Shown here: positions 2,604 to 25,009 of the stretch, in pieces
How the letters are laid out: each line of letters begins with the position of its first letter
Numbering within the stretch: position 1 is the stretch's first letter
Assembly (NCBI RefSeq): GCF_900101785.1
Contig: NZ_LT629688.1
Coordinates: 992,001 to 1,056,000 of the forward strand
Reading direction: 5' to 3'
Length of the DNA stretch: 64,000 bases
Source of the DNA: Auraticoccus monumenti
GTDB taxonomy: Bacteria; Actinomycetota; Actinomycetes; Propionibacteriales; Propionibacteriaceae
The notes under the pieces: generated by a model
Database searches by the model: none
Told to the model about the DNA's origin: nothing
What the model saw: only the letters and a program-made list of their open reading frames with translations
Position numbers and translations under genes: made by a program

Positions 2604-2608
2604 TTTCC

Positions 2609-4311: not shown

Positions 4312-4447
4312 GCTGGTCCTCCTCGGCTTGGCGGGCGCAGCGCAGGGTGATGGCGAGCAGCCCGAGTCCGGTCAGCCAGACGGCGGCCAGGGCGACGCTG
4401 GCGGCGGCCATGGCCCGAGGCATCCCGCACTTCGGCTGGCCGGTCAC
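4301..4447 (-). CDS. Single-span membrane microprotein
   Basis: 48 residues from GTG 4447 (GTGA overlap with the upstream stop). One hydrophobic helix (about residues 13-33, AAASVALAAVWLTGLGLLAI) is followed by a charged tail. It overlaps the next gene by 11 bp. Function unknown. Confidence 0.55.
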   Translation of the reverse strand: MTGQPKCGMPRAMAAASVALAAVWLTGLGLLAITLRCARQAEEDQRAR

Positions 4448-7275: not shown

Positions 7276-7295
7276 GGTGGTGCTCCTTCGGGTGG

Positions 7296-8036: not shown

Positions 8037-8053
8037 GGTGCTCCTCGGGGTGT

Positions 8054-10607: not shown

Positions 10608-10996
10608 CAGGAGTGCGCCTCCGTCCAGGGGTCAGGGGTGGTGGAGAGGGTGGTCACGCCGCCGCTGTGGAGGAGGAAGAACCGCTCGCCGTAGACGGTG
10701 ACGAGGGGGATCTGCTCGGGGTCGTCGGGGCTGAGCTTGCGGATCAGCCAGCCGGTGGCGTAGGCCTCGGCGGGGTGCTCGGTGATCCAGCCGTGGCAGC
10801 CGGTGGTGCCGGTGCCGCAGAGCACGACGAGGCGGCTCAGGGTGTTGACCTGTCGGCTGCCGCCCATGCCGCGGTTCTGGCGGTGGTGGAGGGAGTGGGG
10901 GCCGCGGGCGGTACCGCACCGGCGGCAGCGCCGGTTGTCCCGGTCGTAGGCGGCCTGTCGCATGCCCAGGGTCGGGCCAGTGCTGCGGGGGCTCAC
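10607..10996 (-). CDS. HNH-type nuclease
   Basis: 129 residues. CRRCG near residues 24-28, LHHRQNRGMGG, then the L-V-V-L-C-G...GCHGWITEHP segment make a compact HNH core with zinc cysteines. It overlaps its neighbours on both sides. It may act in recombination or as a homing-type nuclease; the fold is clear, the role is not. Confidence 0.8.
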   Translation of the reverse strand: MSPRSTGPTLGMRQAAYDRDNRRCRRCGTARGPHSLHHRQNRGMGGSRQVNTLSRLVVLCGTGTTGCHGWITEHPAEAYATGWLIRKLSPDDPEQIPLVTVYGERFFLLHSGGVTTLSTTPDPWTEAHS

Positions 10997-11421
10997 GTCT
11001 GGCTCCTGGCCTGCCAGGCGCCGGCTGCACGGTCGTCGGCGCGCCGGGTGCGGTCGTCATCGAGCTCGGCGTGCAGGATCCGCAGCGCTTCCTTGTCGGC
11101 GGACACCCGCTGCTCGGCGGCGCGGTACTGGACGCGGGCGACGTAGACGTCGTCGTCCTGCATCGCCTTGTGGATGCAGACCTCGGCGGAGCGCTCGCCG
11201 GCGGCCCGCTCGGTGACGACGATCTTCCCCAAGAGGCGCTCGTAGCGGCTCTTCGCGGCGGAGTACTCGATCCCGGCGAGCTCGAGGTCGCGGTGATAGA
11301 CCCACATGCGGGCGATGGCCCGGTAGGCGGCGTCCTGGTGCTCGCCGGCACGGCGCAGCTGGCCGTCGCGGTCCCAGCTGAGCTGACTGGCCGCGGTGGT
11401 GGCGAGGTCGGCGTCAGCCAT
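10993..11421 (-). CDS. Helical phage protein of unknown function
   Basis: 142 residues from ATG 11421, with an 8-bp overlap on the upstream gene. It is mostly helical with charged heptads (YEYSAAKSRYERLLGKI-like region, AEQRVSADKEALRILHAEL), suggesting a coiled coil. No recognised domain. It sits between the HNH nuclease and a Gp157-like protein. Confidence 0.6.
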   Translation of the reverse strand: MADADLATTAASQLSWDRDGQLRRAGEHQDAAYRAIARMWVYHRDLELAGIEYSAAKSRYERLLGKIVVTERAAGERSAEVCIHKAMQDDDVYVARVQYRAAEQRVSADKEALRILHAELDDDRTRRADDRAAGAWQARSQT

Positions 11422-11881
11422 CGGTGACCTCCAGCAGGGAGGTGCTGAGCTGCTCGGCGCGGGCCCTGACCTCGACCTCGGCGGCGCTCTTAGCTTCGTC
11501 GGTGAGGCGGCCCTGCAGGTAGCCGGCGCGGTGCTTGACGCGGGCCCAGGTGACCACCTCACCGGTGCGGCGGTCGATGACGTCCGCGCCGGTGATGGCG
11601 AGGTGGGCGACAAGCGCCTTCTTGTAGGACTCCCGGACAGTACGGGTGACGATCACCTCGTCGGGGTTGTCCTCCTCGACGTGCTCGAGGAGGGCGTCGT
11701 CGTCGACGGCGATGCTCTGGGAGGGGGCGACCATGCTGATGCCGCCGAAGCGGGTGCTGAAGCTCTTCGCGCCCGTGGCCTGCTGCACCTGCTCGAGGAC
11801 CTTCTCCTGGTCCTTCACGGCGGCGGTGAGGCCGTGCGCGAGGTAGCGCAGCGCCATCAGGCGGTCAGCGGGCGTCATCAC
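11414..11881 (-). CDS. Phage protein, possibly Gp157-like
   Basis: 155 residues. A long N-terminal helix (LMALRYLAHGLTAAVKDQEKVLEQV) is followed by a beta-rich middle (SFSTRFGGISM) and VTRTVRESYKKALVAHL. The order resembles siphophage Gp157-type proteins located next to single-strand annealing recombinases, which is the arrangement here, but similarity is weak by eye. It overlaps the recombinase gene by 17 bp. Confidence 0.55.
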   Translation of the reverse strand: MMTPADRLMALRYLAHGLTAAVKDQEKVLEQVQQATGAKSFSTRFGGISMVAPSQSIAVDDDALLEHVEEDNPDEVIVTRTVRESYKKALVAHLAITGADVIDRRTGEVVTWARVKHRAGYLQGRLTDEAKSAAEVEVRARAEQLSTSLLEVTDG

Positions 11882-12536
11882 GGCAGAACTTCTCTGCGGC
11901 TGCGGTCCACTGGGCGGGGGAGGCGGTCTCGGGGGTGACGTCGTGCTGGGCCAGGAAGTCGGTCAGGAGGGTCTTGCGCTCGTCGTCGGTGCCGCGGCCC
12001 TCGGTGGCCAGCCAGGCGCTGTTCCGTGCCCGGTCGAGGTCGCTGATCGGTCGGTCGGGCTCGGATGGTGGGGCGTCGCGCAGCTGCTCGGGTGGGAGCG
12101 AGGACTCCAGCTCCTCCTTGGACCACAGGTCCAGGGCGACCCCGAAGCGCATCGCGGCATTGCGGATCGCGTCACCGATGGCCTCCTTGGCGCTGACCCC
12201 GTCGCCCACACCGATGCGGGTCACCCCGAGGACCGTGAGCCGGATCCAGAGGTTGCGGGCGGAGTCGAGGGCGGGGAGCCCTCGCTCGTCGGTGGCCATC
12301 GGCTCCCAGGACCAGCCCGGGTCGACGCTGAGGAGCCGGTCCGTCACCGCGGCGTGACCGACGTAGGGGAGGTGGACGGCGGGGAGGCCGTGGTAGCCGC
12401 CGCACTCGCGGCACTGTCCCTTCGGGGCGTTCTTCTGCATCGGCTTGGGCAGCGTCCCGACCGAGGTGGGCGGGAAGGTGCGGCGGAGCTGCTCGGCGGC
12501 CTCCGTGGTCATGCCGGTGGTGGGGGTGGCGTCCAT
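11865..12536 (-). CDS. Rad52-like single-strand DNA annealing protein
   Basis: 223 residues from ATG 12536 (ATG 12512 is an alternative). Residues ~18-150 carry the pattern of phage Rad52-family annealing proteins: F-P-P-T-S-V-G-T-L-P-K, a CRECGG zinc element, HAAVTDRLLSVDPGWSWEP, LWIRLTVLGVTRIGVGDG and AIGDAIRNAAMRFGVALDLW. The C-terminal third is variable and charged. Expected role is annealing of complementary strands in phage recombination; no separate exonuclease gene was recognised nearby. Confidence 0.8.
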   Translation of the reverse strand: MDATPTTGMTTEAAEQLRRTFPPTSVGTLPKPMQKNAPKGQCRECGGYHGLPAVHLPYVGHAAVTDRLLSVDPGWSWEPMATDERGLPALDSARNLWIRLTVLGVTRIGVGDGVSAKEAIGDAIRNAAMRFGVALDLWSKEELESSLPPEQLRDAPPSEPDRPISDLDRARNSAWLATEGRGTDDERKTLLTDFLAQHDVTPETASPAQWTAAAEKFCRDDAR

Positions 12537-13102
12537 CAGGCGTCCTTCCTGGTGCGGGAGCGGCTGTTGCTGCAGCGGCGGGAGCAGAACCGGGCTGTGG
12601 TCGGCCGGTTGCGGGGCGGGGTGAAGGACGTGCCGCATCCCTCGCAGGTGGTGACGGGCTTCACGGCGAGGGCACGTGCTCGGTTCCAGCACTCCCGAGA
12701 GCAGTAGCGGCGGCGCTGGTGGGGGAGCCCGGTGCCGCAGATCTCGCAGGTACTCGGTGCCCGCCTGGCCGGCCGTGGGGGAGCCGGCTGCTGCTTGGGC
12801 GGGGAGTGGAACAGGCCACCGCACCGGGAAGAGCAGAACCGGCGCTGGCTGCTCGGGGTCGTCTCGAACTGGGAGCCGCACTGCGGGCAGGTGCGCTGCT
12901 CGGTCTTCGGGCGGGTGATGACCTCACCGCCCCAGACGTCGCCCTCGGCGCCGTGCTGGCGGCCGTACGCGAGGCACTCCACCCGCACCGGGCAGTCCCC
13001 GCAGAGACGCTGCTGGATGGTCAGCTTGAGGATGGTGAAGGTGGGCATGCGGGAGCACGCGCCGTCGTCCATCCAGTCCTCGAAGACCACTGGCGCGCTC
13101 AT
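12536..13102 (-). CDS. WhiB-family protein fused to three zinc ribbons
   Basis: 188 residues. Residues 1-65 are a Wbl domain: C16, C34, C37 and C43 for a [4Fe-4S] cluster, followed by the GDVWGGE turn. Three repeats follow, each a Cx2C plus Cx3C pair: C72/C75 with C90/C94, C119/C122 with C134/C138, C153/C156 with C173/C177. Phage WhiB proteins can antagonise host WhiB regulators. The added ribbons are unusual and may give DNA or protein contacts. It lies in the early cluster between an HTH protein and the annealing protein. Confidence 0.85.
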   Translation of the reverse strand: MSAPVVFEDWMDDGACSRMPTFTILKLTIQQRLCGDCPVRVECLAYGRQHGAEGDVWGGEVITRPKTEQRTCPQCGSQFETTPSSQRRFCSSRCGGLFHSPPKQQPAPPRPARRAPSTCEICGTGLPHQRRRYCSRECWNRARALAVKPVTTCEGCGTSFTPPRNRPTTARFCSRRCSNSRSRTRKDA

Positions 13103-14142
13103 GCTGCGACCGGCCGGAGTCGGTGCAGCAGGTCCACACGGTCGTGACGGCGGAGCCGCTGCTCGACGGTGCTCTCAGCGAGCTGCAGATGACGTGCGAT
13201 CGCCGTGAGCGTCTCGCCCTGGTCGGCCAGCCAGACGATGTCCTCGAGCGCGTCGCGGCGGGTCCCGCTCTCGCAACTGGGCGTGCTGGCGGGGTCGTCG
13301 ATCAGGTCGTCGTCCCAGGCGAGCGGCGGCAGCCAGCCGTTGCGTCCAGCCAGCTGGCTGGCCCTCGTGGCTGACGTCTTGGTGGCGCGGTCGCTTCCCG
13401 TGACGGGCTGGTTCCACAGCTCGTCGTACAGCGCCCGGACACCCGCGGCTGTGTGATGCGTGACCTGGCCCTCGCCGGTGACCAGCTTCCAGGCGTTGGC
13501 CGGCTGCCATCCGAGGCGACGGCCGAGTTCGGACATCGACCAGCCGATCGCGACCAGCGCCTGCAGACGCCGGCGGGTACCGGTTCCGTCGACGAGCGCC
13601 CCGGCGGCCAGCGTGACCTGGACGGCGAGCAGCTTCTCCGCGATGTCGCGACGAACACGCTTCCGGGGCGGTCGGTGCTCAGGGTGATCCGGCTGGCTCA
13701 GCAGCTTGCCGTAGAGGATCGCGTACACAGTGCCGTTGGCCACACCGGCGGCTGCTGCCGCCCGCTTCCAGCCCATGCCCTGGGCGGACAAGTCCTTCAG
13801 ATGTGCACGCACGGGATCGGCGTCGACCAAGGAGCCCGGTCGGCCGTAGGCGATGCGGCGCGAGCGGGCACTCTCGTACACGCGGACGGCGTCACGGCAG
13901 GGCCGGCAGCGGCATTTGTCGAGGACGTAGGCCAGTCGGGTGCCGTGCTCGTGGTGGGCCTGAGGGTGGGTGCACTCGCGCTGCTCGCCCGAGGAGCGCT
14001 CCCGCGCGACCCGGCGACGCCGACGCGCCATGCGAACGTTCTGGGCGGCGCACGAGTGCCTGGGGAAGTGGTGGTCAGCGAGGCCCTGGGTCCGGTAGCT
14101 GTGGCTGTGTCCGCAGTCCCGGCAGGTCATCCGGATGGACAT
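13099..14142 (-). CDS. Actinophage HTH DNA-binding protein
   Basis: 347 residues from ATG 14142 (1-bp overlap with the Dam gene stop). The N-terminus has a CRDCGHSHSYRT zinc element and CRCRPCRDAV. Two or three helix-turn-helix segments follow: GWKRAAAAAGVANGTVYAIL, GWSMSELGRRLGWQPANAW and GETLTAIARHLQLAESTVEQ. Proteins of this arrangement are common in actinophage early regions as putative regulators. Target sites are unknown. Confidence 0.75.
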   Translation of the reverse strand: MSIRMTCRDCGHSHSYRTQGLADHHFPRHSCAAQNVRMARRRRRVARERSSGEQRECTHPQAHHEHGTRLAYVLDKCRCRPCRDAVRVYESARSRRIAYGRPGSLVDADPVRAHLKDLSAQGMGWKRAAAAAGVANGTVYAILYGKLLSQPDHPEHRPPRKRVRRDIAEKLLAVQVTLAAGALVDGTGTRRRLQALVAIGWSMSELGRRLGWQPANAWKLVTGEGQVTHHTAAGVRALYDELWNQPVTGSDRATKTSATRASQLAGRNGWLPPLAWDDDLIDDPASTPSCESGTRRDALEDIVWLADQGETLTAIARHLQLAESTVEQRLRRHDRVDLLHRLRPVAA

Positions 14143-14987
14143 CAGCACGCCCTCTGACCGGGGACGGACGCGTCGAAGAGCCCGGGGTGGGGCTCGTAGT
14201 TGGTCCAGACGACTTCGGTGCGTCCGTTTCGGCCGACCTTGTTGGCCTGCTGGGTCGAAGCGCTGATGAGGGTCTGGTGCCAGCCGTTCAGGCGTTCGGC
14301 GTACAAGGCCGAGGCGTACCCGGACAGCGCCACCCGTGCCCGGCACCCAGCAAGCACGCCCAGGAGCTCCCGGTGGTGCTCGGCGGTGGCTTCGTGGCGG
14401 TACTTGCCGCCTGTACGGGTCTCCGGCAGGTAGGGCGGATCGACGTAGAGCAGCGTGCTGGGCTGCCGTCCGTAGTCCCGGACAACGTCGAGGGCGTCCC
14501 GGCACTCCAGGGAGACATGGGCGAGGCGACGGGCAGCAGCGGGCATCCGATCGCGGTAACCATCCAGGTAGCCGGGCATACCTCGGTTGGTGGCTGTGGC
14601 GTCCAGATAGAACCGCCAGCCGGTCGAAGTACGGAGCCCTGCTCTGCCTTGCGTCAGGTGCACCCAGACGCGACGGGCCACCTCAAGGTCGTCGCAGTCG
14701 TCCGTGGTGCGGGACTCGGCCAGCTCGACCCGGGAGTGTGGTGTGAGTTCGCATGCCCTCAGGAGCTCGTCCGGCCGGTCACGGAGGACTCGCCAGAACT
14801 TGACCAGGTGGTGGTCCAGGTCGTTGACCGTCTCGATCTTGGCGGGGCTCTTCGCCAGGAGCACGGACATGCCGCCGCAGTACGGCTCTACGTAGTGCTC
14901 ATGCTCCGGGAACAACGCGACGATCTGTTCAGCGATGCGCTGCTTGGCGCCGAAGTAGGGCAGAGGCGGCCTGAGTGCAGTGGTCAC
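14142..14987 (-). CDS. DNA adenine N6-methyltransferase (D12/Dam class)
   Basis: 281 residues. AdoMet-binding FGAK at 12-15 with VEPYCGG at 33-39, and the catalytic DPPY at 183-186 inside LLYVDPPYLPET, place it in the D12 class (Dam, DpnM). The target-recognition part lies between about 70 and 150. It has no partner nuclease, so it is an orphan phage methylase, probably protecting phage DNA or marking origins and promoters. Confidence 0.9.
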   Translation of the reverse strand: MTTALRPPLPYFGAKQRIAEQIVALFPEHEHYVEPYCGGMSVLLAKSPAKIETVNDLDHHLVKFWRVLRDRPDELLRACELTPHSRVELAESRTTDDCDDLEVARRVWVHLTQGRAGLRTSTGWRFYLDATATNRGMPGYLDGYRDRMPAAARRLAHVSLECRDALDVVRDYGRQPSTLLYVDPPYLPETRTGGKYRHEATAEHHRELLGVLAGCRARVALSGYASALYAERLNGWHQTLISASTQQANKVGRNGRTEVVWTNYEPHPGLFDASVPGQRAC

Positions 14988-15370
14988 CGAGCACCTCCGC
15001 AGGTTTCAGCGAGGCGGCGCTCGTCGAGGAGGATCCGGTGGGCGAGGTCGGCCTCGCGGATGGCGAGCTGCTCCCACTCGACGATCTCGGTGTCGGTGAG
15101 GACGCGGGTCTGCAGGGGGAGGGAGGCGACCGCTGCCGCGTCGTCTGTGCTGTGAGTCCCGGTGAGGCGGTCGAGCTTGGCCCGGGTGATGGCCAGGCGG
15201 GCGCGGTTGACGCCGATCTGGTGCCGCAGCTGGCGATCGGTCAGGGCCGCCGGCGCCGGGGTGAGCTCGGTGGCGCGTTGCGCGGCGAGCTGGGCGCGGT
15301 AGTCGTCGAGGACGCCCGGGCGGAGGGCGGTGACGGTGCCGCCGGCGAGGATGCGGGTGACGGTGCTCAT
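14984..15370 (-). CDS. Helical phage protein of unknown function
   Basis: 128 residues with an ATGA-type overlap to the methylase gene. It is helical with basic and acidic heptads (LRHQIGVNRARLAITRAKLDRL, WEQLAIREADLAHRILLDERRL), so probably a coiled coil. No family recognised. Confidence 0.55.
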   Translation of the reverse strand: MSTVTRILAGGTVTALRPGVLDDYRAQLAAQRATELTPAPAALTDRQLRHQIGVNRARLAITRAKLDRLTGTHSTDDAAAVASLPLQTRVLTDTEIVEWEQLAIREADLAHRILLDERRLAETCGGAR

Positions 15371-15672
15371 CTGGTGGCCGCCTTCTCCAGCTCGCGGCGC
15401 TGCTCGTGCAGCAGCAGCCGCTGGAACTCGGCCTTATGGGCGTCGGCCAGCCGCTTGAAGGCGCGGTTGCGGGCGCGGGCCAGCTGCAGGTACCGCTCCC
15501 GGCTCTCCGCCGGCTGGCGGTTGCGGCGCCACTCCCGGCGGTACTGGCGGATCGCCTCAGCGCACGGTGCGCAGGCCTTCTCCCCAGCGCGGCGGTGCCG
15601 GAGCGCGCCGGCCGCCTGGCCCCGGACGTCGCCGCACGTCTCTGGGAGCGGGTCGTTGAGCGGCCGCGTCAC
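15367..15672 (-). CDS. Actinophage small protein with CG-x-RHRR-x-CxxC motif
   Basis: 101 residues from GTG 15672. CGDVRGQAAGALRHRRAGEKACAPCAEA is a recurrent actinophage and host motif, in which the cysteines and the GxxRHRR-GE stretch form a small zinc or nucleic-acid-binding element. A basic helical tail follows. Function unknown; coupled to both neighbours. Confidence 0.6.
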   Translation of the reverse strand: MTRPLNDPLPETCGDVRGQAAGALRHRRAGEKACAPCAEAIRQYRREWRRNRQPAESRERYLQLARARNRAFKRLADAHKAEFQRLLLHEQRRELEKAATR

Positions 15673-15902
15673 CGGGCACCGTCGGCGGCCGGGTCCTGCA
15701 GCAGGTGCTGGTTGGCGTGGGCCTGCATGCGCGGCACCGCGGTAGAGGTCGGGCCCTCGACCACCGAAGGGCAGGCGGGGCACTGCCAGCGCAGCCAGGA
15801 CGCCGAGCGGATGGCGGCAGCGACGACGACGGCGACCAGGGCCAGCGCCACCAGCAGGACGGCCCCGTTGACGGCTGCTCCCGTGATCAGCAGGGTCGTC
15901 AT
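15669..15902 (-). CDS. Membrane-anchored small phage protein
   Basis: 77 residues. A hydrophobic helix at ~9-32 (AVNGAVLLVALALVAVVVAAAI) is followed by WQCPACP and a distal H-A-N-Q-H, possibly a zinc site on the cytoplasmic side. Coupled by overlaps. Function unknown. Confidence 0.55.
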   Translation of the reverse strand: MTTLLITGAAVNGAVLLVALALVAVVVAAAIRSASWLRWQCPACPSVVEGPTSTAVPRMQAHANQHLLQDPAADGAR

Positions 15903-16090
15903 GCCTGCACCGCACCCTTCTCGGCACCGGCGTCGACGAGCTGGTCGGCGGGGCTGCTACCCACCACGGCCGGAGCGGTCTGGAGGGCGTCGACGACGGC
16001 AAGAGTGGCCGCTGTGATGGCGTAGGCATCCGGGGACAGCGGGCTCTGCCGCAGCGCCTCCCGCGCCAGCTCGTAGTGGGTCCGCTCCAT
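15899..16090 (-). CDS. Small helical phage protein
   Basis: 63 residues from ATG 16090; it overlaps the next gene by 4 bp. The N-terminal half is amphipathic (YELAREALRQSPLSPDAYAITAA), the rest is low complexity. No family recognised. Confidence 0.5.
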   Translation of the reverse strand: MERTHYELAREALRQSPLSPDAYAITAATLAVVDALQTAPAVVGSSPADQLVDAGAEKGAVQA

Positions 16091-16093
16091 CGG

Positions 16094-16945
16094 TCAGCCG
16101 ATCCCGTGGTTGACGTGCAGGTGGGAGGGGGTGCCGGCCTCGACGGTGGCGATCACGGAGTCGAAGGCGTCCTCGAGCACGGTGTCGGGGCGGTGCAGCT
16201 TGAACCCGATGCCGAGGTTGCCGTCCTCGATGCGGTAGCGGAGGCGGGCGGTGACCCGGTACGGCTCGGCGCCCTGGAAGGGGCGGAGCGCGATCGTGAC
16301 GGCGGATGGGATCTCGAGGGTGCCCTTCTCGCCCGCCTTGGAGGTGATGGTCTCCCGGTAGAGGAGCCCGCGGGCGCCGTTGGCGAGGTTCTCCGAGGAC
16401 TCGAAGTCGACGCTTTTCTTCGCGGTGAAGGTGCGGGCGAGGTCGAGCATGGTGGCGGCGTTGGGGTCGATGAAGTCGTCCTGGTTGTCCTCGATGAACT
16501 CGGCGAACTTGACCTGGGTCATCAGCTGGCCGGACACACCCAGCCAGGTGGTCCACTGCTTGTTGGGTCGGAGGGTGAGGACGGCGCGGTGGTCGGCCCA
16601 GCCGGCCTTCCCGGCGTGCTCCGCGGCGTTGAGGACGGCGGTGATGGTGCGCTGGTCGAGGTTGGCCCAGAGCTCGACGTCCTCGGACTCCTCGCCGAGG
16701 AAGCGGCCGGTGTAGTCGAGGAAGGCGGTCGGGTCGAAGGTCTCGACCTTGCGGGGGCCGACCCGGTGCGGCCGCTCGCTGTGCTGCTGGGTGTCGAGGA
16801 CGTGCTGGCGGCCGGTGGTGTCGGTGACGCTGTAGATCCGGCCGCGCTCGAGCAGCTGGGGCTCGGCGGCGGAGAAGGCGAGCCCGGCGACGACCGCGGT
16901 CTCGGTCTGAGGGTCGCCGTCGGTGATGTTGATCAGTCCGGTCAT
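16094..16945 (-). CDS. DUF2303 family phage protein
   Basis: 283 residues from ATG 16945, preceded by GAGGAGCACCACC. The conserved DUF2303 pattern is visible: an N-terminal VTDTTGRQHVLD strand pair, FDPTAFLDYTGRF, the TAVLNAAEHAGKAGWADHRA segment and TWLGVSGQLMTQVKFAEFIEDN. DUF2303 proteins are frequent in actinophage and proteobacterial phage early regions next to recombination genes. Their biochemical role is not established. Confidence 0.9.
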   Translation of the reverse strand: MTGLINITDGDPQTETAVVAGLAFSAAEPQLLERGRIYSVTDTTGRQHVLDTQQHSERPHRVGPRKVETFDPTAFLDYTGRFLGEESEDVELWANLDQRTITAVLNAAEHAGKAGWADHRAVLTLRPNKQWTTWLGVSGQLMTQVKFAEFIEDNQDDFIDPNAATMLDLARTFTAKKSVDFESSENLANGARGLLYRETITSKAGEKGTLEIPSAVTIALRPFQGAEPYRVTARLRYRIEDGNLGIGFKLHRPDTVLEDAFDSVIATVEAGTPSHLHVNHGIG

Positions 16946-16961
16946 GGTGGTGCTCCTCGGG

Positions 16962-17375
16962 TCAGTTGGCGGTGGTCTGGGTGATGTCGCGGGGCGCGGC
17001 CGGCTCGCCGGCGGGCACCTCGCGGAGGCCCGTCAGCTCGGGCTGGGCGGGGTTGGAGCGGGAGAAGTTGCCCTCCTCGCCGAGGTAAAACATCGACGGC
17101 TTGCGCGGGAACGCGGGCAGCTTGAGGCGGACGTCGTCGTGGACCAGGAGCACCTCGTCGTCGGCGCGGCGGTCCGGCTCGACGGTGATGACGAGCGTCA
17201 TGGAGCCCTTCTTGCCGGTCTCCTTCACCCGGTTGACCAGGTCCCACAGGCCCTCGGAGAGCTCGCTGTGGAGGCGGCCGTGGCCCTGCTCGGCGAGGAG
17301 GTCGGCGAAGGGGCGGATGTGCGGGTCGTCGGTGATGGCCCCGGTGCGGGGGTCCTGGAAGCGGCGTTCGGGCAT
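16962..17375 (-). CDS. Phage protein of unknown function, often paired with DUF2303
   Basis: 137 residues from ATG 17375. It begins MPERRFQDPRTGAITDDPHI and contains an alpha/beta core (SMTLVITVEPDRRADDEVLLV) and a Pro-rich end. Immediately upstream of DUF2303 with a short gap, so probably co-translated. No family named with confidence. Confidence 0.65.
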   Translation of the reverse strand: MPERRFQDPRTGAITDDPHIRPFADLLAEQGHGRLHSELSEGLWDLVNRVKETGKKGSMTLVITVEPDRRADDEVLLVHDDVRLKLPAFPRKPSMFYLGEEGNFSRSNPAQPELTGLREVPAGEPAAPRDITQTTAN

Positions 17376-17377
17376 GG

Positions 17378-17551
17378 TCAGGCCTTCCTGGTGGTGTTCT
17401 CGGGGCAACCGGGACGGTGTCCCTGGACGGTGGTGACGTGGCAGCAGGTGGGGCAGGCGTCCGGACGCTGCCGCGAGGTGGTGCACATCGGGCAGCCGCA
17501 GGAGAGGTGGTCGGGCTTCGCCGCGGCGAGCTCGCGCAGGACGGCGGTCAC
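17378..17551 (-). CDS. Cysteine-rich zinc protein
   Basis: 57 residues from GTG 17551 (GTGA overlap). CGCPMC, CPTCCHV and a distal GCP give six or more cysteines in 57 residues, consistent with one or two zinc sites. Too short for firm family assignment. Confidence 0.55.
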   Translation of the reverse strand: MTAVLRELAAAKPDHLSCGCPMCTTSRQRPDACPTCCHVTTVQGHRPGCPENTTRKA

Positions 17552-17862
17552 GACTGGGCCATCGGGTCGTCCACGACGGTCACCGCGATGAGGCCGTCGG
17601 TGGTGTCGATGACCCCGCGCCACCAGGAGTGGGTGGGGCTCACCTCGTTCATGCGGTCGTCCGCCACGACGCTCAACGCCTCACGAATGCTGGCAGTCGC
17701 GCCGGAGTAGCCGCTGATCGTGACGTTCCCGTGCCACTCGACGTGGACGCTGGCGGCCGACAGGAGGTGGATGTTGTCGGCCACCCACTGCAGTGCGCGG
17801 TACCTAGCGTCGGCCGCGGCGACCGCCGTCGCAGGGTCCGGGATGAAGGTGCTGGTACTCAA
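17548..17862 (-). CDS. Phage protein of unknown function with TTG start
   Basis: 104 residues. The start is TTG 17862, decided by AGGAGCACCCG directly upstream, the same leader type used by other genes of this cluster. It reads as a small alpha/beta protein (ARYRALQWVADNIHLL, then SVHVEWHGNVTISGY). First gene after the 17900-17930 hairpin. No family recognised. Confidence 0.55.
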   Translation of the reverse strand: MSTSTFIPDPATAVAAADARYRALQWVADNIHLLSAASVHVEWHGNVTISGYSGATASIREALSVVADDRMNEVSPTHSWWRGVIDTTDGLIAVTVVDDPMAQS

Positions 17863-17899
17863 CGGGTGCTCCTGGGGTGCGGTGGGTGGAAGGGGGTGT

Positions 17900-17930
17900 G
17901 GCCCGTCCTGTCCCCTGATCGGGACGGGCC
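17900..17930. terminator. Hairpin between the repressor gene pair and the early cluster
   Basis: Perfect 9-bp arms GGCCCGTCC (17900-17908) and GGACGGGCC (17922-17930), with an alternative inner GTCCC/GGGAC pairing. It lies 6 bp after the stop of the minus-strand gene 17936-18115. No T-run, so attenuation or antitermination control rather than full stop is possible. Confidence 0.55.
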
Positions 17931-17935
17931 AGAGG

Positions 17936-18115
17936 TCAGGCCGCGCGCTGGCTGGCCGGGTCGGTGAGCAGGCGCCGGAGGCGGGCCTTTTTCGCCTCGT
18001 CCATCGGCGGGATGGGCTTGGCCAGCACCTTCGCGATCTCGAAGTTGTGGAAGTCCTCGGAACCGGGCTTGTGCGGGTTCGGCGAAGTGGGCGTGACCGG
18101 GATGGGCGAGCTCAT
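17936..18115 (-). CDS. Small protein downstream of the Xre gene
   Basis: 59 residues from ATG 18115, with an ATGA overlap to the Xre-type gene. Its order is MSSPIPVTPTSPNPHKPG, then a helix (FHNFEIAKVLAKP) and a basic end (KKARLRRLLTDPASQ). Translational coupling and natural composition support it as real. It may be a Cro-like or anti-repressor partner; that is speculation. Confidence 0.55.
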   Translation of the reverse strand: MSSPIPVTPTSPNPHKPGSEDFHNFEIAKVLAKPIPPMDEAKKARLRRLLTDPASQRAA

Positions 18116-18396
18116 ACGGCAGCACCACGGCGACGGGGCCGGTACTGGACGTCGAGCGCCTCGGCGTCGAGTCCGTACGCAAGTGCGATGGCTCGCAGTA
18201 CTTCGGTCGAGGCGCCGCGGTGGCCGTTCTCGATGGCGGAGAGCGCGCCGCGCGTCAGGGTGAGTTCTGGGTCGGCTTCGTTCGCAGCAGCGCAGACCTC
18301 GTCGAGCGTCATACCGCTCACGCTTCGCAGCGAGCGGAGGTCCACGTAGGGCGGCTGCACCCGCTTCCGCTGCTTCGCGTAGTGGCTGATCGTCAT
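18112..18396 (-). CDS. Xre-family HTH regulator (Cro/repressor-type)
   Basis: 94 residues. ATG 18396 is used; an earlier TTG lies inside the operator. LRSLRSVSGMTLDEVCAAAN...LTRGALSAIENGHRGASTEVLRAIALAYGLD is a full Xre/Cro HTH with the recognition helix at TRGALSAIENG. It is the first gene leftward from the operator array and heads the minus-strand early genes, which fits a Cro-like regulator. It could instead be the immunity repressor. Confidence 0.8.
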   Translation of the reverse strand: MTISHYAKQRKRVQPPYVDLRSLRSVSGMTLDEVCAAANEADPELTLTRGALSAIENGHRGASTEVLRAIALAYGLDAEALDVQYRPRRRGAAV

Positions 18397-18562
18397 AGCC
18401 CTAGAGTAGGGCAAACCTAGCCCTGGAGCAACCCTAAATAGGGCAAACCTTGGCTGACTAGGCCGACGCCTTGTAACTCCCCTGTCTGAGCGGGGGAATC
18501 ACAGCCGTGAGGTTTGCCCAGGGTGCAGCAGGTTTGCCGAACTTCTAGGGCAACCTTGGGGC
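18397..18562. promoter_or_regulatory. Divergent control region with five repeated operators
   Basis: Five copies of one motif: TAGGGCAAACCT at 18407-18418 and 18439-18450 (direct), AGGTTTGCCCA at 18510-18520 and AGGTTTGCC at 18530-18538 (inverted), and a variant TAGGGCAACCTT at 18546-18557. Dyads GCCCTA-GAG-TAGGGC (18398-18412) and CCCTA-AA-TAGGG (18432-18443) overlap the left pair. The sites crowd both divergent starts (18396 and 18563), as in a lysogeny switch. Confidence 0.75.
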
Positions 18563-19189
18563 ATGTCCTCCGAACGCGAGCGGTTCGCACAGATCGTCAA
18601 GCTGCGACGCCAGCAACTCGGGCTCACCCATGCCCTCATTGCGGCGCGGGGTGGGCCGTCCAGCCAGACCTTGTCCAACGTCGAGATGGCTACCGGTAGC
18701 TCCCCGTCTCCGAGCACGCTGCGGAAGCTCGATGAAGCTCTTGAGTGGCAGGCCGGTAGTGCTGCTCGCGCTCTCCAAGGTGGCCGTCCGACCACTCGTG
18801 AGTCAGAGAGCAAGCAGCGCAGCACTCGCATCCACCCGTCGCTCTCGCTGGTTCGGGAGCGCCTGAGGGAGTGGGCGGCCGGACCCATGCAGGAGGAGCC
18901 ACCCTCGGATGCGCTCATGCTCTGGGACGACCGCCAGCTGGTGGAAGAGATGGGCAGGCGTCTAGGCAGTAGGGCAGACCAGATCGCAGTCCTGCGGGAC
19001 CGCGAGTACAGCCGGGCGTCCTCCGTTCCCGAGGTGGGGTCGCGGTCTCAGGTGGACGTCACGGATGCGTCGTTCACGCCGGACCACTACACGCTCGCCG
19101 CCGACCGGCAGGACGAGCCCACCGCCTACGACCGTGCGACCGCCGACCAGGACCTGGCCGGCGAAGAGAGCCAGGAGGACAGGTCGTGA
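18563..19189 (+). CDS. HTH regulator heading the lysogenic operon
   Basis: 208 residues. The N-terminal ~60 residues (RFAQIVKLRRQQLGLTHALIAARGGPSSQTLSNVEMATGSSP) form an Xre-like HTH. The C-terminal ~110 residues are acidic and polar without a recognisable domain. It starts right at the edge of the operator array and is divergent from the 94-residue Xre gene, so it is a good candidate for the maintenance repressor. The next gene overlaps it as GTGA. Confidence 0.75.
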   Translation: MSSERERFAQIVKLRRQQLGLTHALIAARGGPSSQTLSNVEMATGSSPSPSTLRKLDEALEWQAGSAARALQGGRPTTRESESKQRSTRIHPSLSLVRERLREWAAGPMQEEPPSDALMLWDDRQLVEEMGRRLGSRADQIAVLRDREYSRASSVPEVGSRSQVDVTDASFTPDHYTLAADRQDEPTAYDRATADQDLAGEESQEDRS

Positions 19190-20049
19190 GCGAACCAGAG
19201 GTTGAGCACCTGCAACTGAAGTACATCGGCCCCGCGGTGCAAGGTGAGATGCGTGCCCGCACCGTGGGAAGCGTCCTGCAGGATCTGGACGACCTGGTGA
19301 CTCTGGCCAGCCGGACCGGGGAGTTCAACAACATCCCCGCCGCTCCGGACGTCAAGGTGACGGCCACCAACAAGGGCTCCTTCGAGATCGCGGCTGTCGT
19401 GCAGTGGGCCAGCACGCTGGAGGGAGGCGGCACGCTCGTCGCGCTCCTCGGTGGTATCGGCTACGCCATCAGGTACCTGCGCGAGCTCGGCAGCAAGAAG
19501 ATCATCGGCGTCAACCATCGACCGGACCAGGGCACCGTCATCCTCACCTTGGAGAACAAGGAGGTGGTCGAGGTCACAGAGCAGCTCTACGCCATCATCA
19601 TGAACAAGCGCGTCCGTAAGGCGTTGAAGGGCATCGTCCGCCCGCTCGGCAACGGCATCGAGGCGCTGGAGCTGACCGGAGGTGGCGAGACCCACCGCGT
19701 CGCGCTGGAGCAGCAGGACGAGTTCACCGAGCCCGAGGAGGGCGACTGGGACGACGTCGTCACCCGGGAGACCCGATGGGTTCGAGTCCGCCAGCCCGAC
19801 TTCGACAACGACCGCTGGGGCGTGACGATCAACGAAGGACGGGTGTCGGTTACCATCGAAGACGAGGACTTCCTCGCTGACGTAGACACCGGACGGGTGG
19901 CGCTGGCCAACACCCAGTCCTTCCAGGTCCGTCTACGGGTCGAGCAGCGCCGCGAGTCAGGCAAGAAAAAGCCGACCATGCGGTACTTCATCGAACGGGT
20001 TCTGCAGCAGAAGGAACAAGATGAGCCACTCCCAGAGGGGGACCACTAG
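19186..20049 (+). CDS. Lysogenic-operon protein with membrane-like segment (DUF7946/7947-like?)
   Basis: 287 residues from GTG 19186. The N-domain begins LQLKYIGPAVQGEMRARTVG and continues with VTATNKGSFEIAAVV. A hydrophobic stretch follows (GGTLVALLGGIGYAIRYL, ~residues 78-97). The C-domain is beta-rich (WGVTINEGRVSVTIEDEDFL). This two-part layout resembles uncharacterised actinobacterial prophage and defence-island proteins I know as DUF7946/DUF7947; the match is by eye only. Expressed with the repressor, it may affect superinfection; no function is proven. Confidence 0.6.
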   Translation: MSEPEVEHLQLKYIGPAVQGEMRARTVGSVLQDLDDLVTLASRTGEFNNIPAAPDVKVTATNKGSFEIAAVVQWASTLEGGGTLVALLGGIGYAIRYLRELGSKKIIGVNHRPDQGTVILTLENKEVVEVTEQLYAIIMNKRVRKALKGIVRPLGNGIEALELTGGGETHRVALEQQDEFTEPEEGDWDDVVTRETRWVRVRQPDFDNDRWGVTINEGRVSVTIEDEDFLADVDTGRVALANTQSFQVRLRVEQRRESGKKKPTMRYFIERVLQQKEQDEPLPEGDH

Positions 20050-20209
20050 CAGTCCCTTAGGCCGTCTGCCCTGGTTCGGGTGGGCGGCGATCGCGGGCCT
20101 GCTCCTCTGCATCGCCGGCGTCGTGCAGGGCGCCTCTCCCGCGTACCTGCTGCTGCCCTTGATCGTGCTCGCTGCCTCGATCGCGAGCGCTCGCAACTCG
20201 AGCGACTGA
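20021..20209 (+). CDS. Small two-helix membrane protein
   Basis: 62 residues overlapping the previous gene by 29 bp. Two hydrophobic helices (WFGWAAIAGLLLCIAGVVQ and SPAYLLLPLIVLAASIA) are linked by a short loop, forming a hairpin in the membrane. Small holin-like or exclusion-type membrane proteins often occur in lysogenic operons; this one is not identifiable further. Confidence 0.6.
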   Translation: MSHSQRGTTSSPLGRLPWFGWAAIAGLLLCIAGVVQGASPAYLLLPLIVLAASIASARNSSD

Positions 20210-20240
20210 CTGTCGGAGTCGCCCTCTACGGTCGGTCGGC

Positions 20241-20678
20241 ATGGACACCCCTCACCCGTGGCGTTGGTTGCGGGATCACCACCCGCACGTGCTGCTGCAC
20301 TGGCACGACCTGCCGCCGGGCTACCGAGGGACCACCGACGGCCACAGCAACATCTGGATGCGCCGCCGCCTGGTTCAGCGGGAGCGGCGCTCCACGCTGG
20401 CCCACGAGCTGGAGCACATCCGACGCAATCATCGGGGGTGCCAGAGGGAGGCAGTTGAGCGGGTGGTGCGGCACCACGCCGCCCGATGGTTGCTGCCCGA
20501 CCTGGGCGTGGTGCTGGACGCGGTGGTGTGGGCGCGGGGAGACTTCGAGCACGCCGCGGAGGAGCTGTGGGTGGACCGGGCCACCGTGCTGGCCCGGCTG
20601 GACCTGAGACATCTGCACCCGGCGGAGAAGACACTGGTCCAGCGCAGAATCGACGACATGGTGCAGGAGATGGCATGA
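20241..20678 (+). CDS. ImmA/IrrE-like zinc metallopeptidase
   Basis: 145 residues. HELEH at residues 55-59 after the RRSTLAHELEHI helix is the zinc-binding motif of the ImmA/IrrE (COG2856) family. The C-terminal part has an HTH-like segment (AAEELWVDRATVLARLD). ImmA-type enzymes cut cognate Xre-like repressors during prophage or ICE induction. Location in the repressor operon supports that role here. The next start overlaps its stop as ATGA. Confidence 0.8.
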   Translation: MDTPHPWRWLRDHHPHVLLHWHDLPPGYRGTTDGHSNIWMRRRLVQRERRSTLAHELEHIRRNHRGCQREAVERVVRHHAARWLLPDLGVVLDAVVWARGDFEHAAEELWVDRATVLARLDLRHLHPAEKTLVQRRIDDMVQEMA

Positions 20679-21592
20679 GGATCAAAGCAGCACTGGGCGT
20701 CATCGCAGCTGCGTCGATGGTGGTGACGGGCTGCAGTGCCGATGCGTCGCAGCAGGCGCCGCCCGCAGCGACTCCGACCTCATCGAGCTCGTCCCCCAGC
20801 CCTAGCCGGTTGGCTGCTACCGCCTTCGACGTCGGTGGCCACCTGGTCGACGACTACCAGGAGTTCGACGGTGCGGTTGGCGACCTCTGCGAGTCGAAGC
20901 GGATGAAGGACGAGCAGGAGATCCGACTCATCGGGGCTGGTGACGAGCTCACGTCCATCGTGAACGCGGGGCGGGTCGATGAGGACTACGCCTGCGCGTT
21001 CCGCTTCTACTTCGGAGCAGTACCGAGTGGCTCTTACGAGATCGAGATCAGCGAGGGTGTCGCCGCCAGCATCTCCGTCGGTGCCAGCATGGAGCCCCTG
21101 CAGATTCGGCTGCCCGCGGCCTGGTCGGACGACGAGTTGGCCTACCTCGAGTGGGCAGATGTGGTGGCGGACAGCGACGAGGCGGCCAGCACGGTCGCTG
21201 CCGCTCGCGAAGCCTGCGACAACATCGCTAACTCCGACCAGGAGAACGCGATCGCCGGCCTGGTCGACGAAGCCACCGACGAGACCCGCGCCGCGGTGAA
21301 GTACCTCTGTCCCGAGCACGAAGAAGTGCTTGAGGTCGCAGACCGTAGCTTCGGTCAGGGGTCCTACAAAGTGCGCACCCAGGGGAGCCGTGACGAAGAC
21401 GACGTGATCCAGCCAGGCACCTATCGCACCAGGGACGGCGTCGAGGACTGCTACTGGGAGCGCGTCGAGGACAACGGTGAGATCCGGTCCAACGAGCTGG
21501 TCGGCTACGCCCCCGAGGGGGTCGAGATAACGCTGCTCGACACTGGCGGCGGGTTCTCGTCGGAGCGCTGTGGTGTCTGGTACCGCCAGTGA
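20675..21592 (+). CDS. Prophage-encoded lipoprotein
   Basis: 305 residues. MRIKAALGVIAAASMVVTGC is a lipoprotein signal with the lipidated cysteine at position 20, followed by a Ser/Pro/Thr-rich linker. The mature part has two similar-sized beta-rich regions, the second ending in DCYWERVED...GFSSERCGVWYRQ, a pattern seen in many actinobacterial secreted proteins. As a surface lipoprotein expressed in the lysogen it could block superinfection or change the cell surface. That is inference from context. Confidence 0.75.
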   Translation: MRIKAALGVIAAASMVVTGCSADASQQAPPAATPTSSSSSPSPSRLAATAFDVGGHLVDDYQEFDGAVGDLCESKRMKDEQEIRLIGAGDELTSIVNAGRVDEDYACAFRFYFGAVPSGSYEIEISEGVAASISVGASMEPLQIRLPAAWSDDELAYLEWADVVADSDEAASTVAAAREACDNIANSDQENAIAGLVDEATDETRAAVKYLCPEHEEVLEVADRSFGQGSYKVRTQGSRDEDDVIQPGTYRTRDGVEDCYWERVEDNGEIRSNELVGYAPEGVEITLLDTGGGFSSERCGVWYRQ

Positions 21593-21714
21593 CTGACGAG
21601 GACCGTGTCATCCTCGAGGTGGCCGACCGCCCGCGCGCTGTACGGCTCGCTCGGGCGGCCGAGCTGGGCCTGACGTCGGCGCGGTTTCATCAGCGGCTCA
21701 TCGCCCTGCTGTAG
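21589..21714 (+). CDS. DUF3263-like mini-protein
   Basis: 41 residues from GTG 21589 (GTGA overlap with the lipoprotein stop). TDEDRVILEVADRP...RAAELGLTSARFHQRLIALL follows the pattern of DUF3263 proteins (D-x-ILdFE...aGAKeqaI...GLSatRYyQvLNaLi), but shorter. DUF3263 proteins are small HTH-like actinobacterial and actinophage proteins of unknown role. Last gene before the element boundary. Confidence 0.55.
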   Translation: MTDEDRVILEVADRPRAVRLARAAELGLTSARFHQRLIALL

Positions 21715-21840
21715 ACTCGGCAGGCGCTCGAGGAGGTCCCGGTGCTAGTTGGTCGGCTGCGCCGGGTGCAGCACGCTCGACGACTCGCCCGCACCACCTG
21801 AAAGTTCGGGGTTCACCCGATCCAGGGGGGCCGGGCTCGC
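21715..21840. other. Right boundary of the prophage (probable attR)
   Basis: Between the last phage-type gene and the first codons recognisable as TadA (GSLSTTHSRSA, from 21834) there is no gene. The tadA frame continues upstream as a non-homologous run and has no start. The crossover core must lie in this stretch, most likely near 21800-21835, but only comparison with the left boundary can define it. Confidence 0.55.
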
Positions 21841-22190
21841 TGTCCACCACCCACTCCCGCTCGGCGGCCAGCACCGTGGACCGCCTCGCCTCGCGGGTCG
21901 CCCAGGGCGGGGTGCTGCAGATGGACGAGGCCTACCGCCAGATCGCGCACAACATCGACCTCCTGGTCCACGTCAGCCTGGTCGACGACACCTGGCGCGG
22001 CGGGGTCCGCACCCGCCGGGTCAGCGAGATCCGCCAGCTGACCGGGGCCATCGAGCAGGGACGTCCGAGCACCCACCTCGTCTACGCGAGCACCCCGCAG
22101 GGAGCCTTCTTCCAGCCCGACCCCGACTTCATGGTCGACCTGCACCCCTTCCTGCCCACCTGGCGCGCCGGCCGGAGGGTCAGGTCATGA
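21834..22190 (+). pseudogene. tadA: TadA/CpaF-type pilus ATPase, C-terminal fragment
   Basis: About 118 codons matching the end of a type II/IV secretion ATPase. GSLSTTHSRSAASTVDRL is the conserved segment after Walker B, followed by AYRQIAHNIDLLVHVSLVD and VSEIRQLTG. Walker A, the Asp boxes and Walker B are missing because the prophage boundary lies directly upstream. The stop overlaps the tadB start as TCATGA, so the original operon layout is kept. The 5' part presumably lies beyond the left end of the prophage. Confidence 0.8.
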
Positions 22191-23068
22191 CCACGGTGGC
22201 GGTGGCCGCGTGCGGGGCGCTCATGGTCGCCGGTGTGCTGCTCCTGGTGGCAGGGCTGCGTCGGCGCCCGCCCGGGCCGGCATCCCTGCGCGAGCGGCGC
22301 AGCCTGCGGGAGCGGTGGGCCCGAGCCACCCGACGGCCTCCCGGTGGCGCCGGTCGTCGCCGCGACCGGCTGCTGCTGCTCGGTGCCGGGCTGGGGGTGC
22401 TGGCCTTCGCCGTCACCGGGATCCCGCTGACCCTGCTGCTGGTGCCGGTCGCGGTGGTGGGCCTGCCGTGGCTGCTGGCCGACCCCGTCAACGGCGAGCT
22501 GGAGCTGCTGCGCGCCCTGGACCGGTGGGTGCGCGCCATGACCGCCACGCTGCAGACCGGGCAGTCGGTGGCCGACGCCCTCCGGAGCTCCGTCCGACAG
22601 GCCCCGGACCTCCTGGTCGAGGACCTCCGGCTGGTCGCCGCGCGGCTCAACGACCGGTGGACGGTGCGGGAGGCGCTGCTGGCCATGGCCGACTCCCTGG
22701 ACAGCCCGGACGCCGACGCCGTCCTCGCCGCCATGGTGCTGGCCGCCGAACGCGGTGGGACGGGTGTCGCCACCACGCTGCGCGAGCTGTCGGAGTCCAC
22801 CCAGGACCGGCTCCGCTCGATGCGCGAGGTCGAGGTCGAGCGGGCCAAGCCGAGGATCGTGGTCCGGCAGGTCACCGTGATCACGGTGACCGTCCTGGCC
22901 GTGGCGCTGGTGGTGGTGCGCGACTTCTTCGCCCCCTACGCCACCCCGCTCGGGCAGGCGCTGCTGGCCGGGCTGTTGGCGGCCTACGCGGGCTCCCTGG
23001 TGTGGATGCGGCGGCTGACCACCCCCCGCCCGCGGGACCGCATCCTCCGTCCGGAGGTGCAGCGGTGA
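22187..23068 (+). CDS. tadB: TadB-type pilus inner-membrane platform protein
   Basis: 293 residues from ATG 22187, coupled to the tadA stop. It has an N-terminal membrane helix, two helices around residues 65-100, a central T2SSF domain (LDRWVRAMTATLQTGQSVADALR and AERGGTGVATTLRELSESTQDRLRS... pattern), and two C-terminal helices. TadB and TadC form the membrane platform driven by the TadA ATPase. The intact gene depends on a promoter now separated from it by the prophage. Confidence 0.85.
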   Translation: MTTVAVAACGALMVAGVLLLVAGLRRRPPGPASLRERRSLRERWARATRRPPGGAGRRRDRLLLLGAGLGVLAFAVTGIPLTLLLVPVAVVGLPWLLADPVNGELELLRALDRWVRAMTATLQTGQSVADALRSSVRQAPDLLVEDLRLVAARLNDRWTVREALLAMADSLDSPDADAVLAAMVLAAERGGTGVATTLRELSESTQDRLRSMREVEVERAKPRIVVRQVTVITVTVLAVALVVVRDFFAPYATPLGQALLAGLLAAYAGSLVWMRRLTTPRPRDRILRPEVQR

Positions 23069-23964
23069 GCGCCCACCTGACGACGCTGCTGGTCGTGCTG
23101 ACCGGGGCGCTGGTCGGCGGCGGCGTGGTCCTGCTGGTGCGCGCCCTGGTGCCCGCGACGCCGCGGCTGGGTGACGCCCTGGCGGTGCTGTCCACCGACC
23201 TCCCGGTCCGCAGCACCGTGGCGGAGGCGACGCGCCCGACCGGGCGGCTGGAGCGCGTGGGGTCCTGGCTGCACCGCCGCTCGCCCCTGCCGGTGTCGCC
23301 CCGGCAGGCGCGGCTGCTGGAGCTGCGCGGGCAGTCCTCGGCGGAGTTCTTCTCCGAGAAGCTGATCATGGCCGGGGTCGGTGCCGCGCTGCCGGCGTTG
23401 GTCACTGCGTGCCTGCTGCTCCTGGTCGAGGTGTCGGTGGCGGTGCCGGTGCTGGCGACCCTGGCCGGTGCCGTCGTCGGCTGGTTCGTGCCCGACCTCG
23501 CGCTGCGCCGCGGCGAGGCGTCCGCGAGGGGCTCAGCCAGCGAGGCGCTGTTCACCTACTTCGACCTGGTCGTGCTGGAGCGGCTGGCCAACCGGTCCGG
23601 GACCCAGGCCCTCCAGTCGGCGGCGTCCATGTCGAGCACGCCCCTCTTCCTGCGGATCCAGGCAGCCCTGGAGAGGGCCCGGTTGGAGCAGCGTCCGCCG
23701 TGGCCGGAGCTGAAGCGGGTGGCCGACCAGCTGGACCTGCCGCAGCTGGGCGACCTGGCTGACGTGATGAGCCTGGACGAGACGGGCGCCGCCCTGTCGG
23801 AGACGCTGCGCGCCCGGGTCCGCGAGCTGCGGGACGCCCACCGCAACGAGGTCACCATCGCCGCGCAGGAGGTGTCGGAGCGCATGTCGATCGCCATGGT
23901 GGTGCCGGCGATGGTGTTCGGCCTGATCTTCCTCGTCCCACCCCTGCTGAGGCTGCTCGCCTGA
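23065..23964 (+). CDS. tadC: TadC-type pilus inner-membrane platform protein
   Basis: 299 residues from GTG 23065 (GTGA overlap with tadB). It has an N-terminal helix, a pair of helices near residues 95-145 (ALPALVTACLLLLVEVSVAVPVL...), a T2SSF domain (FTYFDLVVLERLANRSGTQALQ...AQEVSERMSIAMVVPAM) and a C-terminal helix. It forms the second half of the Tad platform. Confidence 0.85.
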   Translation: MSAHLTTLLVVLTGALVGGGVVLLVRALVPATPRLGDALAVLSTDLPVRSTVAEATRPTGRLERVGSWLHRRSPLPVSPRQARLLELRGQSSAEFFSEKLIMAGVGAALPALVTACLLLLVEVSVAVPVLATLAGAVVGWFVPDLALRRGEASARGSASEALFTYFDLVVLERLANRSGTQALQSAASMSSTPLFLRIQAALERARLEQRPPWPELKRVADQLDLPQLGDLADVMSLDETGAALSETLRARVRELRDAHRNEVTIAAQEVSERMSIAMVVPAMVFGLIFLVPPLLRLLA

Positions 23965-24033: not shown

Positions 24034-24213
24034 ATGCAGAAGATGTTGGCCGTCGTCCTCGGCCTCTGGCTCCAGCCGCCGCCCGAGCGCGACGAGCGCG
24101 GGCTCTCCCAGTCCACCGAGAACGCCATCCTGCTGGCCGGTGCCATCGCGGTGGCCACGATCGTGGTCACCGCGGTGACCGTCTACGTGCGATCGAAGAT
24201 GCCGGGCCAGTGA
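24034..24213 (+). CDS. Small Flp-pilin-like membrane protein
   Basis: 59 residues with a strong AGGAGGT 7 bp before ATG 24034. An N-terminal hydrophobic segment and charged RDERG precede LSQSTENAILLAGAIAVATIVVTAVTVYV. A glycine before a polar segment with glutamate and then a long hydrophobic helix is the layout of prepilin-type (class III) proteins. It is the best pilin candidate in this cluster, but lacks the typical Flp EY pair. Confidence 0.65.
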   Translation: MQKMLAVVLGLWLQPPPERDERGLSQSTENAILLAGAIAVATIVVTAVTVYVRSKMPGQ

Positions 24214-24584
24214 GCGGCGGTCGCCACGACGAGCGGGGGGTGACGGAGTCCGTGCAGTGGGCGCTGGTCATCCCCGTCGTCCTGGCGATCCTGCTCGCCG
24301 CCGTGCAGGTCGCCACCTGGGCCCACGGCCGCCACACCGTCCGGCACGCCGCGGCGGCGGCGGCCGAGGCCGCCTCGGTGTCCCGCGGGTCGCCGGAGCG
24401 GGACGCGCGCTCCGCCGCCACCTCCGTGGCGGGGGCCGGCGGACTGCACTCGGTGGAGGTGCTGGTCACGACCCGGCCGGACCGGGTGGAGGTGGTCACC
24501 AGGGCCAGGGTCGACCTGATCGTCGACCTCGGGCTGAGCACGGTAACCGCCCGGGCCGAGGCCCCCCGGGAGCGGGTCTCATGA
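24210..24584 (+). CDS. tadE: TadE-like pseudopilin 1
   Basis: 124 residues from GTG 24210 (overlap with the pilin-like gene). DERGVTESVQWALVIPVVLAILLAAVQVATWAHGRHTVRHAAAAAAEAAS is the TadE domain: a single transmembrane helix followed by an Ala-rich helix. The C-terminal part is a small beta domain (VEVLVTTRPDRVEVVTRARV). Probably a minor pilin of the Tad pilus. Confidence 0.8.
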   Translation: MSGGRHDERGVTESVQWALVIPVVLAILLAAVQVATWAHGRHTVRHAAAAAAEAASVSRGSPERDARSAATSVAGAGGLHSVEVLVTTRPDRVEVVTRARVDLIVDLGLSTVTARAEAPRERVS

Positions 24585-25009
24585 CCCGGAGGACGCGGGA
24601 CGACCGCGGGGCGGTGGCCACCGAGCTGGTGGTGGTGATCCCCGCGCTGGTGATCATCATCGGGCTGCTGGTGGCGGGCGGCCGGATCTGGCTGGCCCGG
24701 CAGGGGGTGCAGGAGGCGGCCGCCAGCGCGGCCCGTGCCGCCTCCCTGGCGCGGGGTGCCGGTGAGGCCCGGCAGGCGGCGGAAGGGTCCGCGGCCGCCA
24801 ACCTCGACACCCAGGGGCTCACCTGCCGCCCGGCGCAGGTGGTCGTGGACACCCGGGGGTACGCACGAGCTCCGGGGACCGAGGCCACGGTCGGGGTCAC
24901 GGTGACCTGCACGATCACCCTCGCCGACGTGGCCGTCCCCGGCCTGCCCGGCTCGATGACCCTGACCACCCGGGCCACCTCGGCCCTCGACACCTTCCGG
25001 AGCCGGTGA
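24581..25009 (+). CDS. TadE/TadF-like pseudopilin 2
   Basis: 142 residues from ATG 24581 (ATGA overlap). RDDRGAVATELVVVIPALVIIIGLLVAGGRIWLARQGVQEAAASAARAAS repeats the TadE layout. The C-domain includes two cysteines (LTCRPAQ and VTVTCTITL) that may form a disulfide outside the membrane. Minor pilin candidate. Confidence 0.8.
   Translation: MTRRTRDDRGAVATELVVVIPALVIIIGLLVAGGRIWLARQGVQEAAASAARAASLARGAGEARQAAEGSAAANLDTQGLTCRPAQVVVDTRGYARAPGTEATVGVTVTCTITLADVAVPGLPGSMTLTTRATSALDTFRSR

Follow-up and report, generated by a model that had tools for sequence, protein, structure and literature searches.

What truncates the motor ATPase gene of the Tad pilus in Auraticoccus monumenti, and could the gene be made whole again? 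The window analyzed here, 64,000 nucleotides in length, covers positions 992001-1056000 of a genome assembled as a single 4.46-Mb contig. Phage genes fill its left part, and tadA sets in directly beside them as a 3' fragment. The sequence-only reading had recognized about 118 TadA/CpaF codons, in frame and overlapping tadB, as the first host codons next to a prophage. This description was borne out: the fragment comprises the last 120 codons and the stop codon in frame, and the TGA of tadA overlaps the ATG of tadB in the tetranucleotide ATGA (22187-22190). Coordinates are collected in Table 1.

Table 1. Features at the right end of the prophage and in the adjoining tad locus (window positions)
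Feature	Position	Strand	Remarks
Right-hand part of prophage	1..21829	.	Left 28.4 kb outside the window; delimited by tadA halves and core
DnaB-like replicative helicase of prophage	8054..9337	-	
Divergent HTH DNA-binding protein	18112..18414	-	Repressor region
Right-end lysogeny-type cassette	18563..21592	+	HTH regulator, unknown protein, metalloprotease-like, lipoprotein-like ORF; points at tadB
attP left arm (reconstructed)	21804..21812	+	GTTCGGGGT; inverted symmetry about GG
attR core	21828..21835	+	GGGCCGGG; same 8-bp core at attL, genome 963606-963613
tadA 3' fragment	21828..22190	+	Begins GPGSLSTTHSRS; encodes residues 367-486, then stop
tadB (T2SSF)	22187..23068	+	Overlaps tadA stop codon
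tadC (T2SSF)	23065..23964	+	Under Pfam cut-off
Short Flp-type pilin candidate	24034..24213	+	Judged by sequence shape and by its location between tadC and tadE
Two TadE-like minor pilin genes	24210..25009	+	24210-24584 and 24563-25009; PF07811

The missing part of the gene was found outside the window. A search of the genome for the T2SSE family returned a truncated match at 963159-963608, 28 kb to the left of the window. The tadA frame at this place starts at 962508, continues in frame to Gly367 and then runs into phage sequence. It encodes TadA residues 1-366 (962508-963605) and lies 50.2 kb to the left of the 3' half; hence, the left flank of the element is not unrelated sequence, and prophage insertion into tadA, as proposed from the right end, was confirmed. 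Joining the flanks in silico at the GG of the Gly367 codon yielded a 486-residue TadA without stop or frameshift, and the joined protein carries the motif EAMQAGPGSLSTTHSRS, identical to that of the uninterrupted, 87% identical tadA of the congener G001. The predicted restoration of the gene by exact excision thus held in silico. The cut is positioned just before the GSLSTTHSRS (His-box) motif. It had also been stated that the catalytic part was absent. This applied to the right fragment only, whereas the left fragment keeps the P-loop, Asp box, and Walker B intact. No second intact tadA was seen in the genome, in which the only other ATPases of this type are paralogs of ~30-32% identity. Signs of decay were not detected in the two halves: conserved positions showed no excess of change in this genome (a change private to it at one of four informative conserved tadA positions), and dN/dS relative to the congener was 0.19 for the N-terminal half and 0.42 for the C-terminal half.

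The ends of the element share the short identical core that the earlier reading had called for, GGGCCGGG, so that a plain deletion lacking attL is contradicted. Both gene halves at the ends, one core at both, and a frame restored by joining are the marks of a gene-interrupting prophage. The crossover dinucleotide is predicted to be the GG at 21828-21829. The partner of the left attP arm, ACCCTCGAAC, is located directly to the right of attL. Inverted symmetry about GG extended over 15 of 30 positions, a value equally high in 13 of 2000 shuffles; a center 7.5 bp away gave a higher local palindrome score, 18. A very short shared core and inverted attP arms around the crossover dinucleotide are features of large serine integrase sites. 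Judged by sequence, attB would be the DNA encoding the conserved motif EAMQAG-PGSLSTTH, with the crossover at the GG of the Gly367 codon. An alternative 8-bp core, GGCCGGGC (attL at L003:1944, attR at window position 21829), was discarded, since the frame shifts when the flanks are joined at it. A tRNA gene, as a possible attachment site, was not found within the window.

The element itself (genome about 963606-1013829, 50.2 kb) is a complete-looking prophage of the siphovirus type with all main modules present. Next to the tadA 5' half, at 963634, begins the gene for a serine integrase of 458 residues with the domains PF00239 (Resolvase, 1e-28) and PF07508 (Recombinase, 1e-15) and a PF13408 zinc ribbon barely above the cut-off. 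It matches a PHROG integrase at 1e-99. Identity to the integrases of named phages did not exceed ~41%; members of the same family at about 36-41% occur in prophiGD54-2, Kumao, and Amela (mycobacteriophages/Streptomyces phages). Further genes specify endolysin, tape measure, major capsid protein, protease, portal (52% identity to its counterpart in Arthrobacter phage Hum25), large terminase, DnaB helicase, and DNA methyltransferase, as well as divergent HTH regulators and a metalloprotease-like protein. Integrase, repressor region, replication, packaging, capsid, tail, and lysis genes of a temperate phage are therefore all represented. The large terminase is encoded by two overlapping ORFs that match separate PHROG families (L006 14738-16466, minus strand). 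Adjoining attR, a small HTH frame resembling DUF3263 (21589-21801, plus strand) contains an in-frame TAG at 21712-21714; with this codon read as X, the frame matched PF11662 at 8e-10. A similar frame stands uninterrupted at the same place in the prophage of another genome of the family (G028). The product is possibly a regulator or directionality factor.

On the host side, the gene order T2SSE ATPase, two T2SSF proteins, TadE pilins identifies a Tad pilus locus. The Flp-type candidate had no Pfam pilin match. The gene upstream of the tadA 5' half occupies the usual tadZ/cpaE place and likewise gave no Pfam match. With this gene on one side and tadB, tadC, pilin, and TadE genes on the other, the element lies within a single tad operon and divides it. 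The TadE genes are immediately followed by one for a LysM protein of 1072 residues (25006-28224, plus strand), possibly within the operon. A T2SSE ATPase together with a T2SSF pair is also encoded at two other places in the genome, 183-186 kb and 2096-2099 kb; both loci are apparently intact and might compensate for the split gene, although Micrococcus luteus requires both of its two tad loci.

The same crossover was found in other bacteria. Among 198 genomes of the same bacterial family, about 134 by our count had an uninterrupted orthologous tadA, and the gene was split in 8 of ~142: G000 (this genome), G028, G114, G164, G136, G191, G070, and G017. G136 was counted as a split gene only, its halves being on different contigs without an integrase of the family beside the cut. 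Set aside were G204, in which a contig ends exactly at the crossover, G207, in which the front half was not found, and locus L100, where integrase and CpaF gene are 0.8 kb apart. The contig end in G204 (L106, G204:C38) falls at the tadA GG in a fragmented, partly contaminated assembly and might reflect a mixed population of integrated and excised forms.

Four elements appear to use the GG of Gly367: those of G000, G028 (42 kb), G114 (40 kb), and G164 (15 kb). Both tadA halves were located in each of the other three genomes. In G028, one half stops and the other resumes within residues 367-369, and the integrase beside the front half is 52% identical to that of G000; in G114 and G164, the same codon is cut, and the adjoining integrases are about 41% identical to it. 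In reconstruction, attB of all four restores the TadA frame. Inverted attP symmetry about GG amounted to 15 (G000), 14 (G028), 20 (G114), and 16 (G164) of 30 positions, which is strong in G114, where long arms (CCATGGGTATAAC and its complement) are placed 15 bp to either side of GG, and moderate in G000. GG was the best symmetry center in G028 and G114 and the second best in G000 and G164, where another local palindrome scored higher. For G028, an alignment on TGG was discarded as out of frame; symmetry, too, is highest about the in-frame GG. The elements of G028 and G114 are prophages, and their genes for head and packaging come wholly or partly from other families than those of G000; the 15-kb element of G164 resembles an island and carries a helicase of phage type. 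In the integrase tree, the four formed two non-neighboring pairs, G000/G028 and G114/G164; the tadA integrases could still have a single origin.

Other motifs of the gene family are cut as well. In G017, 2.2 kb of DNA with a distant serine recombinase interrupts the P-loop of tadA (GDQ|GAGKT); this element (L110, G017:C15, about 2357-4577) has a single serine recombinase and an apparent CA core. Elements at about codon 201 of tadA occur in three genomes (L107, L143, L145), and the gene is split there in G191 and G070 by elements of 19-20 kb. A right-end gene with a weak tyrosine-recombinase match is present in G207 and G070, a similar unknown protein of ~585 residues stands at the right end in G191 and G207, and the ends of the G070 element are inverted repeats. 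In two Geodermatophilus genomes and in G082 (L111, L112, L113), the cut lies in the Asp box of a CpaF-type paralog; both halves were located, 8-11 kb apart, and the integrases of these islands are 40-45% identical to that of G000. A class-wide sample of 29 loci was also considered. When loci used for profile building were excluded, the integrase adjoined a CpaF gene cut at the P-loop in 4 of 27 (L081, L092, L094, L095), with one end read at each of these four. Given that a genome has only a handful of T2SSE/CpaF ATPase genes, this share appears far above the expectation for random genes, a comparison made by reasoning rather than by a formal test. Repeated insertion into one gene by diverged integrases, as observed here, is a property of mobile elements that disrupt competence.

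From these data, a temperate siphovirus has very probably integrated site-specifically into tadA by means of its own serine integrase, with tadA serving as a hot spot. That an assembly artefact or a plain tadA deletion accounts for the truncated gene is scarcely credible: nothing in the analysis spoke for it, and the single-contig genome, both halves, the core, the integrase, and the precedent in three other genomes speak against it. The events may be pictured as follows. The virus would enter tadA of the Tad locus through its large serine integrase and cross over at the GG of the Gly367 codon within the attB encoding EAMQAG-PGSLSTTH. The lysogen would then make only a truncated TadA of 366 residues plus a phage-encoded tail, and the remaining pilus operon would be severed from its own upstream region. 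Functional TadA is thus presumably lacking, a polar effect on tadB and the genes behind it is to be expected, and the pilus should not assemble. Because no terminator-like site was found between the right-end cassette and tadA, read-through from the cassette perhaps softens the polar effect. Recombination of attL with attR would restore tadA exactly, so that excision may return the gene to its original state. Unrelated elements with related integrases would use the same dinucleotide, and elements with other recombinases would enter tadA or its paralogs at other motifs. Since unrelated viruses and islands occupy this very spot in other bacteria, tadA appears to be a recurrent docking site.

Why this gene is chosen can be answered in several ways. 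The suggestion that the prophage acts as a reversible switch (active lysogeny), excising under certain conditions and thereby turning on the Tad pilus for adhesion, was only partly supported. Exact restoration is possible, and both halves are intact and free of decay; however, such halves are equally compatible with a recent insertion, and with its full set of virion genes the element has the look of a normal temperate phage, not of one that has been domesticated. We therefore regard a switch as unlikely. As to what the lysogen loses, in Micrococcus luteus, deletion of any tad gene except tadB abolished transformation, both of its two tad loci were required, and the mutants showed no obvious change in adherence (PMC4322843). 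The gene for ComEC was present in all eight genomes tested, this one and seven related ones. Together with the tad requirement in M. luteus, this suggests that the lost function is no less likely to be DNA uptake than adhesion.

The motor might accordingly be targeted because loss of DNA uptake protects the element from removal by transformation. The recurrent attack of diverse recombinases on one gene at several motifs argues for this, as has been reasoned for comFA, comM, and comYC, and so do the M. luteus phenotype and the presence of ComEC; targets of large serine recombinases are also enriched in competence genes (PMC10083194). Other T2SSE paralogs are hit too, and target conservation alone could produce the pattern; we give this explanation somewhat less than an even chance. 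Alternatively, integrases may simply settle on slowly evolving DNA of catalytic motifs, with the loss of the pilus as a tolerated side effect. The cuts coincide with conserved motifs or adjoin them (P-loop, Asp box, His box), and use of one site across genera requires a conserved target. Many other conserved genes exist, however, and the ATPase class is apparently hit far more often than its share of genes would suggest; we place this explanation close to an even chance. Conserved motif DNA in a dispensable gene and disabled DNA uptake are, in short, about equally likely reasons for the choice. A broader and rather doubtful proposal is that the Tad/CpaF ATPase genes of Actinobacteria serve mobile DNA generally as a docking site and as a battleground: many phages, satellites, and islands of unrelated descent, using serine recombinases and perhaps tyrosine recombinases too, would have converged on the catalytic-motif DNA since a disabled pilus blocks DNA uptake and thereby their own removal.

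Integration of the siphovirus into tadA defines a precise, testable attachment site in a pilus motor gene that unrelated elements from different genera have in common. Should Tad pili be a route of DNA uptake here, the conflict between mobile elements and transformation would extend to a phylum with little-studied competence. The four sets of integrase, attP, and attB with one defined crossover may also serve as genetic tools. A search of an open-access library returned no paper on tadA or cpaF as the target of a prophage or serine integrase.

The comK prophages of Listeria (A118, phi10403S), to which the locus had been likened, share with it the serine integrase, the interrupted gene of a DNA-uptake system, and the possibility of exact restoration. 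They differ in that their target is a regulator, in Firmicutes, and that regulated excision has been shown for them. The parallel fits the anatomy, and it may also hold for function, by way of DNA uptake instead of adhesion, given that natural transformation of M. luteus requires Tad pili. Mobile elements that disable competence genes are well described (PMC4774983). The elements in comYC, comFA, and comM, treated there in a model of intragenomic conflict, resemble ours in that related integrases return to orthologous positions of a single gene for a pilus or for DNA uptake; here, the target is a Tad pilus motor ATPase in Actinobacteria, and the term "tad" is absent from that paper. Large serine recombinases with recurrent targets (PMC10083194) likewise include distantly related integrases that share one target gene, with the enrichment in competence genes noted above, whereas T2SSE, CpaF, and pilus do not appear in its main text. 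The prophage is thus a further case of a known gene-interrupting class; of greater interest is the use of the Tad motor gene as a hot spot.
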